From Candidatus Geothermincola primus (GTDB taxonomy: Bacteria > Actinomycetota > Geothermincolia > Geothermincolales > Geothermincolaceae), in assembly GCA_015711725.1 (NCBI GenBank), contig JACVIX010000013.1, positions 1 to 38,841 on the forward strand: a stretch of 38,841 nt of DNA, read 5' to 3'. The translations under genes and the position numbers were made by a program. Positions 21,220 to 25,114 of this stretch are shown here, one piece after another. Numbering within the stretch: position 1 is the stretch's first letter; each line of letters begins with the position of its first letter. Under the pieces are notes generated by a model that searched no databases, was not told where the DNA came from, and worked only from the letters and a program-made list of their open reading frames with translations.

Positions 21220-21882
21220 GTGGAAATCACGTTTATAGAGGCCAGAGATCTTCCCGACGCTTGGTTCCAGTGCGTTTACAATATCTTCGATAAAGGAAGG
21301 GTATATCAGATCGAAAGGGGAAGCTTTAAAGGCCAAAGGAGATTGGAATACGATTTTGTCTTGGTAAAAATCACTCATCCGGAGACGCGTCCCCTTATAC
21401 CGGACATGCCACCCGGTGTGGGGCTTCCTCCTCCCACGGATATGGAGTATGTAAACGAATACCTGGAAAAGTTGTGTTCCTCCTCATCTAAATCCGAGTC
21501 AGAGGATTACACTTATGGGATGTACTTGGAAGAACAGATTCAAGAGGTTATACGCATGTACCGGGATGAGGGGTTCGGCACCAATCAGGCTTGCATGGCA
21601 GTATGCGACCAGAGGTCGATTTTTTTGGATGACCCACCCTGCCTCAGGCAAATAGACACACGGATCTACCCCGGGGAGGAGAGGTTGCATTTCATCTGCT
21701 ATTTCCGCTCTTGGGATCTCTGGGCAGGATTTCCCTCTAATCTGGCTGGCATTCAACTTTTAAAGGAATATATGTCCGATGAAATCGGGGTGAGACCCGG
21801 AGAGACCCTCGCGCTCTCCAAAGGGATGCATCTTTATGAATACGCATGGGAACTGGGAAAGACGCGGGCGTACCGAAATTGA
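21220..21882 (+). CDS. Thymidylate synthase, methanogen-type ThyA family
   Basis: The GTG start follows AGGAGGT. The 220-residue length fits the short archaeal thymidylate synthases rather than the standard bacterial enzyme of about 264 residues. The likely catalytic cysteine is C141 in DDPPCLRQIDTRI. The nucleotide-binding block FRSWDLWAGFPSNLAGIQLL (162-181) corresponds to the FRSxD-x-x-x-G-x-P-x-N-L region, and H204-L-Y206 (GMHLYEY) to the HxY motif that holds the deoxyribose. It would convert dUMP to dTMP, in methanogens with tetrahydromethanopterin-type cofactors and in bacteria presumably with folate. A role as a dCMP or dUMP hydroxymethylase cannot be excluded. Confidence 0.75.
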   Translation: MEITFIEARDLPDAWFQCVYNIFDKGRVYQIERGSFKGQRRLEYDFVLVKITHPETRPLIPDMPPGVGLPPPTDMEYVNEYLEKLCSSSSKSESEDYTYGMYLEEQIQEVIRMYRDEGFGTNQACMAVCDQRSIFLDDPPCLRQIDTRIYPGEERLHFICYFRSWDLWAGFPSNLAGIQLLKEYMSDEIGVRPGETLALSKGMHLYEYAWELGKTRAYRN

Positions 21883-22078
21883 CGGTAAACCCCTTTTTAA
21901 AATCTCTCCGATAGCCAACCCAACGCGCGAGGGTATTTGCCTATATAACTTCTTATTACCTAAATGTTTATTATTTTATAGTTAAGTAAAATTTATGGAA
22001 ATTTAAACTGAACATAGAAAATGCTTTTTATCTACTTGTTACTGACATATACTTTATGGTGAAGAAAGGAGGTAGGAG

Positions 22079-23392
22079 ATAAACCCGCTCGCTGTCGAGT
22101 TAAACCAAACCATAAGGGAATTCAGCCCGACGGTCTACGACATGCTTTCTAATCTTGGGAAGGAACTTTTTTTCCCACGAGGGATAGTGCAACAGACCGC
22201 GGAAGCGAGATTAAAAGCGCATCTTTTTAATGCTACCATAGGCATCGCCACAGAGAAGGAGCGCGCGATGCACCTCCCTTCCATGATTAAATATATACGC
22301 GATCTAGACCCCGATGAGATTTTTTCCTATCCCCCCACCACAGGAATCCCCGAGCTAAGGAACAAGTGGGCTCAACGGCAGATGGAGGAAAACCCATCGC
22401 TCGGAAATAAACAGGTGAGCCTGCCCATTGTCACCAACGGCATTACCCATGGGCTAAGCATCATAGCGGATCTTTTCTGCGAAAAGGGTGATCCCGTTAT
22501 CCTTCCCGATAAGCTATGGGGCAACTATAGAATGATTTTCGGACTACGTAGAGGGGGAGATATCTTGACCTATCCCTTTTACAACAACGCCGGAGGTTTT
22601 AATCTTGAAAGCCTAAAAAGCTTGCTTGGAACCATCCCTATCTCAAAAAAAGTTATAATCATCTTCAACTTTCCCAATAATCCCACTGGCTATTCCCCTC
22701 GTGTGGACGAGGCTGTTGCAATCGCCGAAATGCTTTATAGAGAGGCGGAGTCGGGGAGGAAGCTGATTGTCGTACTGGATGACGCATACTTCGGCTTTTT
22801 CTATGAGGATGAGATCATACGAGAATCCCTCTTCTCCGCCCTAGCTGACCTTCATCCCCAGATTCTCGCCCTCAAGGTGGACGGAGCCACCAAAGAGGAT
22901 TATGCCTGGGGATTGAGGGTGGGATTCCTAACCATGGGAATCGGGGGCACAGGGGAGAAATCTATACTATACCAGTGCATGGAGAAGAAGGTGGGCGGGG
23001 ATATACGAGCAACTATCTCATACTCCTCCATGCTTAGCCAGAGCTTGCTTCTGAAGACGATGCTCTCCCCTCACCTCAAAGAGGAGAAGAGCCAAAAATA
23101 TAATATATTGAGAGCGCGCTACCTCAAAGTTAAGGATGCCCTGCGCAATGAGAAATACAAGGGGTGTTGGAGATACTATCCATTTAATTCTGGTTATTTC
23201 ATGTGTTTGGAGCTCAAAGACGCGGACGCTAATTCGGTGAGGAAGAGGCTGCTAAATAATTACGGCGTGGGGGTTATTGCAACAGGAGCTAGCGATTTAA
23301 GGATCGCCTTCTCTTGTATTGAGCAAGATCAGGTGCATGAGTTGTTCGAATTATTGTATAATGCCGTCGAGGATATCAGAAAAACGACGTAG
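22079..23392 (+). CDS. Class I/II PLP-dependent aminotransferase with apparent AUA start
   Basis: The frame is open from 22079, but its first conventional start is ATG 22142, which has no ribosome binding site. An ATA at 22079 lies six bases after AGGAGG and begins NPLAVELNQTIREFSP. From memory this matches the usual N-terminus (MNPLA-x-ELN) of this aminotransferase group. An in-frame TAG lies immediately upstream. I therefore place the start at ATA, giving 437 residues. PLP-site features are NFPNNPTGY, VVLDDAYFGFFY and, for the Schiff-base lysine, DGATKEDYAWGLRVGF (K272 in this numbering). It heads an operon with the homocitrate-synthase-like gene, so a 2-oxo acid made by that route may be its substrate. 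Confidence 0.85.
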   Translation: MNPLAVELNQTIREFSPTVYDMLSNLGKELFFPRGIVQQTAEARLKAHLFNATIGIATEKERAMHLPSMIKYIRDLDPDEIFSYPPTTGIPELRNKWAQRQMEENPSLGNKQVSLPIVTNGITHGLSIIADLFCEKGDPVILPDKLWGNYRMIFGLRRGGDILTYPFYNNAGGFNLESLKSLLGTIPISKKVIIIFNFPNNPTGYSPRVDEAVAIAEMLYREAESGRKLIVVLDDAYFGFFYEDEIIRESLFSALADLHPQILALKVDGATKEDYAWGLRVGFLTMGIGGTGEKSILYQCMEKKVGGDIRATISYSSMLSQSLLLKTMLSPHLKEEKSQKYNILRARYLKVKDALRNEKYKGCWRYYPFNSGYFMCLELKDADANSVRKRLLNNYGVGVIATGASDLRIAFSCIEQDQVHELFELLYNAVEDIRKTT

Positions 23393-23418: not shown

Positions 23419-24738
23419 ATGGATATCGGGAACAACGAAAAGAAGAGGATTTATATCATAGACGTCACCAATCGCGATGGCGTCCAGACCTCCCGTTTAG
23501 GATTGGCTAAACTGGAAAAAACCATTATTAACCTTCTCCTTAACGAAATGGGAATATGGCAGTGTGAGTTTGGTTTTCCCACCACCCATCACGAGACTAA
23601 CTATCTGCAGGCAAACTTGGAATTGGCCGAAATGGGCGTGATCGACCGCATGCGATTGGAGGGATGGCTTCGAGCTTGGCGGCGGGATGTGGAAAAAGCC
23701 AGGGCAATGGTGCCCAATCTCAAATATATCAATTTATCCACTTCCACATCCCCTCAGATGATTCAGGGAAAGTGGAAGGGGGAGAGAAGTTTTGATGATA
23801 TCGTCAAGTTCATGACCGAAGCGCTAGATTGCGCGCTGGAGGTGGGATTCGAGTCCATAGGGGTTAACGCGGAAGATGCTTCCAGGACGCCTTTAGAGCA
23901 ACTGATTGAATTCGGGCACGCGGCAAAGACTCATGGGGCGGTCAGGTTGCGCTACTGCGATACCCTCGGTTTCAACGATCCCTTTACCATCTATGATACC
24001 GTCTATGCCCTGGCAAAAGAGCTCAAGATGGACATCGAGATCCACTGCCACAATGACCTAGGAATGGCGGTAGCTTGTTCCGTCGCAGGAGCGAAAGGAG
24101 CTTTAGACGCGGGCGTAAATGCCTTTATCAATACCACCATAAATGGCTTCGGAGAACGCGCAGGCAACGCCGACCTGGTATCGGTGATACTAGCCATTAA
24201 GAAATCCACCTTGTTCCAGGAAGAAGACGTGCTGGACGATGCCATCAATCTGATGACCGCTTGGAAGACGGCTAAATACGCCTCCTACGCTTTCGGGGTC
24301 CCCATACCGGTTAACCAACCTGGAGTGGGAGAAAATGCCTTCGCTCACGAGTCAGGCATCCACGCAGATGGCGCCCTCAAAGACAGGCGCAACTATGAAC
24401 TTTATGACTACGAGGAATTGGGTCGAGGCGAACCGGAGATAATAGAGACGGGGAGAAGCATAACCATAGGTGAGTATTCTGGCATCAAAGGCTTTCGCAA
24501 CGTTTATGAAAAACTGGAAATAGAGTTTCAATCGGAAGAGGAGGCTCGCGAAATTCTGGAACTAGTTCGCTATGCCAACGTAAGCACCCAAAAACCGCTA
24601 GTGGAAGACGAGCTTCTTTTCATCGCGCGATATCCGGAGCAGGCTCGGAAGATCTTAACGTTAGATCCATCGGGCGTAAGGGCGAAAAATCCACTGCAAG
24701 GGGGAGAGCATGGAAGAAGTACCGGAACCAGTGCTTAA
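23419..24738 (+). CDS. Homocitrate synthase / 2-isopropylmalate synthase family enzyme
   Basis: A 439-residue condensing enzyme of the DRE-TIM metallolyase family, which joins acetyl-CoA to a 2-oxo acid. DVTNRDGVQ (15-23) is the catalytic RDG start, in a variant form of the common DTTLRDGEQ. The metal site includes D15, H209 and H211 (EIHCHNDLGMA). GFGERAGNADL, NQPGVGENAFAHESGIHADGALK and the ETGRSITIGEYSGIKGF block fit homocitrate synthases of the NifV/AksA type. It lacks the leucine-binding C-terminal domain of long LeuA enzymes. Substrate candidates are 2-oxoglutarate, 2-oxoisovalerate and pyruvate. It lies 26 bases after the aminotransferase and overlaps the next gene by 29 bases. Confidence 0.85.
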   Translation: MDIGNNEKKRIYIIDVTNRDGVQTSRLGLAKLEKTIINLLLNEMGIWQCEFGFPTTHHETNYLQANLELAEMGVIDRMRLEGWLRAWRRDVEKARAMVPNLKYINLSTSTSPQMIQGKWKGERSFDDIVKFMTEALDCALEVGFESIGVNAEDASRTPLEQLIEFGHAAKTHGAVRLRYCDTLGFNDPFTIYDTVYALAKELKMDIEIHCHNDLGMAVACSVAGAKGALDAGVNAFINTTINGFGERAGNADLVSVILAIKKSTLFQEEDVLDDAINLMTAWKTAKYASYAFGVPIPVNQPGVGENAFAHESGIHADGALKDRRNYELYDYEELGRGEPEIIETGRSITIGEYSGIKGFRNVYEKLEIEFQSEEEAREILELVRYANVSTQKPLVEDELLFIARYPEQARKILTLDPSGVRAKNPLQGGEHGRSTGTSA

Positions 24739-25114
24739 AAAACTTTCAGAATATTATTACAGATATAAGAAATTACAACCTCCCCAAGGCGAGGAGATTC
24801 CCCCTTGGGCTCGCAACATAAACACCATGAACAAGCCGGACCTGGAACATGAGACCCGCGACACCATCAGGGCTTGTAAGGAATTGAAGAGAAAATTGAA
24901 CATTCTTGAATACGAGGGGGAAAAGGTTGTCCCCATAAAGAGCAAGAGATTGAAATTGCAAGAAGAATTAAACAACGAATGGACCTATTTGAGCTATTAT
25001 CTCTACACTTTATTCAGGCGCTCCGGGGTAAAGGTCTCCGAAAGCGAATTCGATGAATTTATCAAAGAGGAGACAGGTAACCGCAGCTACATCACCAATT
25101 TAAGTTTAAGGTAG
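24710..25114 (+). CDS. Small charged protein of unknown function in the aminotransferase operon
   Basis: The ATG at 24710 has GGGGGAG just upstream and lies inside the end of the homocitrate-synthase-like gene, so translation is coupled. The 134-residue product is rich in lysine and glutamate and probably helical. Its N-terminal part has a proline-rich stretch (LQPPQGEEIPPWARN), and the middle has DLEHETRDTIRACKELKRKLN. No catalytic motif, signal peptide or membrane segment is visible. Its fixed position after the enzyme gene suggests an accessory or regulatory role in that pathway, but this is inference. Confidence 0.75.
   Translation: MEEVPEPVLKKLSEYYYRYKKLQPPQGEEIPPWARNINTMNKPDLEHETRDTIRACKELKRKLNILEYEGEKVVPIKSKRLKLQEELNNEWTYLSYYLYTLFRRSGVKVSESEFDEFIKEETGNRSYITNLSLR

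Follow-up and report, generated by a model that had tools for sequence, protein, structure and literature searches.

A conserved AUA/AUC start codon predicted for an aminotransferase gene of the Candidatus Geothermincolales

Where does translation of a gene begin when an ideal ribosome binding site is followed at the usual distance by ATA, and the first in-frame ATG appears only far downstream? The question is raised by an aminotransferase gene in the 38,841-nucleotide stretch analysed here (hereafter the window), which forms contig C11 in the 225-contig draft of a 3.17 Mb genome (G000). The original prediction took the ATA to be a genuine, rarely used initiation codon or else a mutated ATG. 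We asked which reading fits the gene's protein family, its relatives and its ribosome binding site.

The start site and the protein family

The gene and the features that bear on its start are as follows.

22066-22073, + strand: extended Shine-Dalgarno (SD) sequence AAGGAGGT, read directly, with AGGAGG at 22067-22072
22073-22075, + strand: in-frame TAG of the aminotransferase frame, found by walking the translation upstream
22079-22081, + strand: AUA start codon of the aminotransferase, at position 1 of profile NF006388, the corresponding codon being ATA or ATC in 12 other genomes
22142-22144, + strand: first in-frame ATG, a false start without an SD; a start there loses 21 conserved codons
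22079-23392, + strand: class I/II PLP-dependent aminotransferase of the PRK08637 family, 437 aa (NF006388, PF00155)

Direct reading of the window bears out the arrangement described originally: AGGAGG is separated from ATA 22079 by six bases, the in-frame TAG lies just upstream and is followed by GAG and then by ATA AAC CCG CTC GCT (INPLAVELN), and ATG 22142, 21 codons downstream of the ATA, has no SD. The TAG closes the frame, so that no upstream in-frame start is possible for the aminotransferase of the window. From the ATA the open frame reads INPLAVELNQTIREFSPTVYDMLSN... and stops at 23392. The window contains one copy of AAGGAGGTNNNNNATA, where dinucleotide shuffles lead one to expect 0.01.

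The protein belongs to the PRK08637 equivalog by its full-length coverage and its score above the curated cut-off: an NCBIfam model search gives NF006388 at 596.5 bits against a cut-off of 301 (E = 3e-179), with residues 1-434 covering profile positions 1-432 of 433, and Pfam gives PF00155 at 108 bits. Position 1 of NF006388 aligns to ATA 22079, which means that the ATA occupies the place of the family's initiator Met. The N-terminus MNPLA, which the original prediction gave for this family, is right according to both NF006388 and the alignment of homologous N-termini. The N-terminal peptide predicted for the AUA start, from upstream of ATG 22142, is NPLAVELNQTIR, and the residues that would be missing if translation began at ATG 22142 are INPLAVELNQTIR. 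In the window we therefore find the marks of an AUH (AUA/AUC) start, namely a codon where the family has its initiator and an SD at the proper distance from it. Taken with the ATA/ATC column of the relatives, the alignment to NF006388 strongly supports initiation at AUA 22079, and the sequence evidence places the true start of the gene there.

The ribosome binding site was compared with those of ordinary genes by its duplex energy with the anti-SD, using as a yardstick the 207 orthologous NTG starts common to the window genome and G030. The window SD, at −13.3 kcal/mol, equals or exceeds about 93% of these 207 NTG-start genes in the same genome. Every ATH copy of the aminotransferase has an SD within the strongest 2-9% of NTG genes (the window copy within the strongest 7%), and the spacing from GGAGG to ATH across genomes is 6, 7 or 8 nt. 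By analogy, the strong SD at the ATH copies is compensation of the kind reported for conserved non-canonical starts of S. aureus (PMC13009471).

The start column across the order

The closest named relatives that carry the aminotransferase gene belong to Candidatus Solincola, which NCBI taxonomy places within Candidatus Geothermincolales; the others are Actinomycetota. Among the order genomes searched, 15 hold the gene, and their start column reads ATA in seven (G000, G021, G022, G025, G026, G027 and G029), ATC in six (G016, G017, G020, G023, G024 and G030) and GTG in two (G015 and G019). An AUH start is thus conserved across species in 13 of the 15, and the 12 genomes other than that of the window are separate assemblies. 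The sister families have ATG (f4, f5) or TTG (f6, f7) in this column, and nine Spirochaetes have ATG. ATA or ATC together with a strong SD recurs in 12 further genomes, a degree of conservation far beyond chance. The GTG of G015 and G019 means that the order can do without the weak start.

In a maximum-likelihood tree of the aminotransferase protein, the 13 ATA/ATC rows form one group with G019 (support 90/83), support being low at the deepest fork of the tree. Parsimony on this tree requires at least five changes between ATA and ATC and none to ATG, and there is no case of ATG at the aminotransferase start within the ATA/ATC clade. A single transition turns ATA into ATG, and such a change normally raises translation. 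The absence of ATG despite repeated ATA-ATC transversions argues for selection against a strong start. Judged from alignment and tree, the clade as a whole inherited ATA/ATC, and the ATA of the window is no strain-specific loss of an ATG, which leaves the mutated ATG of the original prediction without support.

Proposed control by IF3 and alternative readings

The retention of AUA or AUC by the relatives points to deliberate throttling of aminotransferase translation. The initiator tRNA-Met in the sampled genome is ordinary, with a CAU anticodon and a GGG/CCC anticodon stem. This tRNA would pair with the first two bases of AUA or AUC and be mismatched at the third, while the near-complete match to the anti-SD would keep the 30S subunit in position, so that initiation could occasionally succeed. 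IF3 selects for strong codon-anticodon pairs and against mismatches (PMC10158994). Initiation at AUA would then proceed at a low rate and be open to further restraint by IF3, and the order would keep AUA/AUC by selection against AUG. By analogy with the few genes in which this is known, the weak start is probably sensed by IF3; we infer on the same footing the low aminotransferase output, the IF3 control and a physiological reason. The explanation as a whole, from the AUA start at 22079 and its extended SD through selection against AUG to a low, IF3-sensitive output, seems to us quite likely.

The predicted effect concerns one enzyme in an operon whose starts are otherwise normal. The neighbouring genes of the conserved run are as follows.

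21220-21882, + strand: thymidylate-synthase-like gene, before the aminotransferase, starting with GTG in the window and ATG in 13 relatives
23419-24738, + strand: homocitrate/isopropylmalate-synthase-like gene, after the aminotransferase, with a canonical ATG
24710-25114, + strand: fourth gene of the run, a 134-aa protein without an NCBIfam match, starting with ATG in 11 of the 11 genomes examined

The run thus consists of the thymidylate-synthase-like gene (ATG in 13 of 14 genomes, the window being the GTG exception), the aminotransferase, the homocitrate-synthase-like gene and the gene for the 134-aa protein, and only the aminotransferase has a weak start. The earlier suggestion that the AUA lowers expression of the operon was for this reason too broad; the weak start is limited to the aminotransferase cistron, whose neighbours have ATG. 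Among the first three proteins of the run the aminotransferase is the least conserved (50-54% identity vs. 75-86%). The thymidylate-synthase-like protein (21220-21882, + strand) matches TIGR03283 below its cut-off and is 77-86% identical across the order, which exceeds the conservation of the aminotransferase downstream.

A fixed, constantly low output that does not follow the level of IF3 would be served by an AUH start equally well, and we put this reading a little short of an even chance. Several known non-canonical starts reduce output several-fold, and of three such starts in S. aureus two responded little to the medium (PMC13009471). Against constant output stand the infC gene of the same genomes, a classical IF3 target with an AUA start, and the repression of a non-canonical start by IF3 within the same phylum (PMC5472188).

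A further reading makes the ATA/ATC column an internal Ile codon of a protein begun at an upstream NTG. In about eight relatives an in-frame GTG does stand three codons ahead of this column, inside GGAGGTG, and synonymous drift would also exchange ATA with ATC. Such a start is impossible in the window, where the TAG stands one codon before GAG-ATA; in G020 and G022 the stretch from the in-frame stop to the ATH contains no NTG, and G021 offers only a TTG at −84 that has no SD. In other words, no usable in-frame NTG lies nearby in the window, G020 or G022, and the case is ambiguous in the roughly eight relatives with GTG within the SD. That GTG lacks a separate SD; it belongs to GGAGGTG(A), which is fully complementary to the 16S tail. 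The spacing of 6, 7 or 8 nt between SD and ATH also shifts out of step with the reading frame, which fits an SD, unlike a coding extension. We regard an internal Ile codon as very improbable.

Re-initiation or −1 frameshifting from a short leader open reading frame would feed the same start by another route.

ATG 22056 to TAA 22080-22082, + strand: leader ORF MVKKGGRR, its stop overlapping the ATA (ATAA)

In favour of this route, the stop overlaps the ATA in the window, and L042 (G022) has another short ORF with its stop at that same position. The leader ORF has no SD, though, and neither its peptide nor its position has a counterpart in the other relatives, so that we consider such coupling highly improbable. 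In an Rfam search of the window the only match was one tRNA, with no riboswitch or known RNA found in the leader, and a search of 13 orthologous loci gave no match.

A start at ATG 22142 or another downstream NTG is what gene callers choose, this ATG being the first canonical in-frame start. It has no SD, however, and costs 21 conserved residues. The first downstream NTG lies at +63 in G000, +33 in G020, +165 in G021 and +309 in G022; in the relatives it thus falls at codon 12, 56 or 104, which provides no common downstream start and counts against this reading, and we hold it to be extremely improbable. An error of sequencing or assembly, or a recent mutation of ATG in the window organism, is suggested by the 225-contig draft and the single transition involved, but is next to negligible given 12 other genomes with ATA/ATC in the same column, each with a strong SD.

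A special initiator tRNA reading AUA was also considered and rejected, as the initiator found has the normal CAU anticodon; the exchange of ATA and ATC likewise argues against AUA-specific decoding.

Other weak starts and known systems

Scanning two genomes by codon statistics for ATH codons at SD distance was uninformative. A screen of ortholog pairs followed, in which about 837 kb of the window genome and 1.6 Mb of G030 gave 372 pairs above 90 bits. The criterion was homology beginning upstream of every NTG in both genomes, and the screen yielded the aminotransferase, infC and a PF01261 TIM-barrel gene. Weak starts thus form a small class in the order, roughly one percent of the genes in this non-exhaustive sample. 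The further genes discussed are as follows.

L084 16639-17424, + strand: PF01261 (xylose-isomerase-like TIM barrel) gene of the window genome; L183-L196 in relatives
Window 36529-35882, − strand: infC, with no NTG at the family N-terminus
Window 37515-37132, − strand: gene that we take to be rsfS (ribosome silencing factor), with ATT just after AAGGAGGTCG and a TTG 18 nt upstream

Each of the 15 order genomes with the PF01261 gene has ATA or ATC in its start column. Ten of the 15 have no NTG between stop and start, in four others an ATG or GTG precedes the start by one to three codons, and the strength of the SDs is not uniform. The infC gene starts with ATA in most relatives; the window has GTA (36529-36527) at the aligned position and CTG two codons on (36523-36521), both downstream of AAGGAG, and an ATG-TAA start-stop overlaps them in another frame. 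The rsfS start in relatives of the order is ATA, GTA, GTG or ACA (often ATA or GTA), that of sister families is TTG or ATG, and no obvious start was seen in G016-G018. One might group infC (ATA), rsfS (ATA/GTA/ATT), the aminotransferase and the PF01261 gene (ATA/ATC), mostly behind an extended SD, into an IF3 regulon, a tentative idea that we think rather unlikely to hold; if true, the level or fidelity of IF3 would set ribosome-dormancy and metabolic genes jointly.

Two further sites were observed in passing. A SpoU-type rRNA methyltransferase (window 35232-34417, − strand) has an apparent CTG start (35232-35230) after GGGAGGTGAAGG, aligned with GTG in G030. The sequence AGGAGTATCTTTGAC stands at an open-frame start at about 9994 of L088 (+ strand; from the screen) and about 4989 of L200 (+ strand), and these sites are presumably the known RF2 (prfB) programmed frameshift site.

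Starts of the AUH kind are already known from infC, sigR and ccpN, and to our knowledge only a handful of genes other than infC have a conserved AUA/AUC start. The gene, the lineage and the clade-wide interchange of ATA and ATC appear to be new within the open-access papers searched. With the aminotransferase a metabolic enzyme joins this set, as does a second gene, both from an uncultured order of Actinomycetota and both found from sequence alone by combining a conserved codon class with SD strength. Gene callers restricted to ATG/GTG/TTG truncate proteins with AUH starts, and candidates for IF3 control could be listed in all genomes by looking for families whose N-terminus precedes the first NTG in several relatives.

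The infC gene, which encodes IF3, starts with AUU, AUA or AUC and is autoregulated. The aminotransferase shares with it the AUH start and the strong SD, and ATA is also found in the infC of the order; infC is self-limiting, whereas no feedback is evident for the aminotransferase. PRK08637 aminotransferases with ATG, GTG or TTG starts are alike in protein family and operon neighbours, but keep a canonical start in sister families and Spirochaetes. The sigR gene of Streptomyces starts with GTC in 32 of 34 species and GTT in two, and is repressed by IF3 by experiment (PMC5472188). It resembles the aminotransferase in phylum, in a conserved non-canonical start never replaced by canonical ones, in a near-identical extended RBS AGGAGGTG, and in being misannotated by gene callers (PMC5472188); it differs as a sigma factor gene with a GTC codon and experimental IF3 repression, where the aminotransferase has ATA/ATC and a probable, inferred role of IF3. 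The starts of ccpN (AUA) and cvfC1 (AUU) in S. aureus and B. subtilis give, in poor medium, about 10% of the reporter output obtained with AUG (PMC13009471). Like the aminotransferase they combine a conserved AUA or AUU start with an extended SD, although they are other genes of another phylum whose starts were mapped by Ribo-Ret profiling (PMC13009471).
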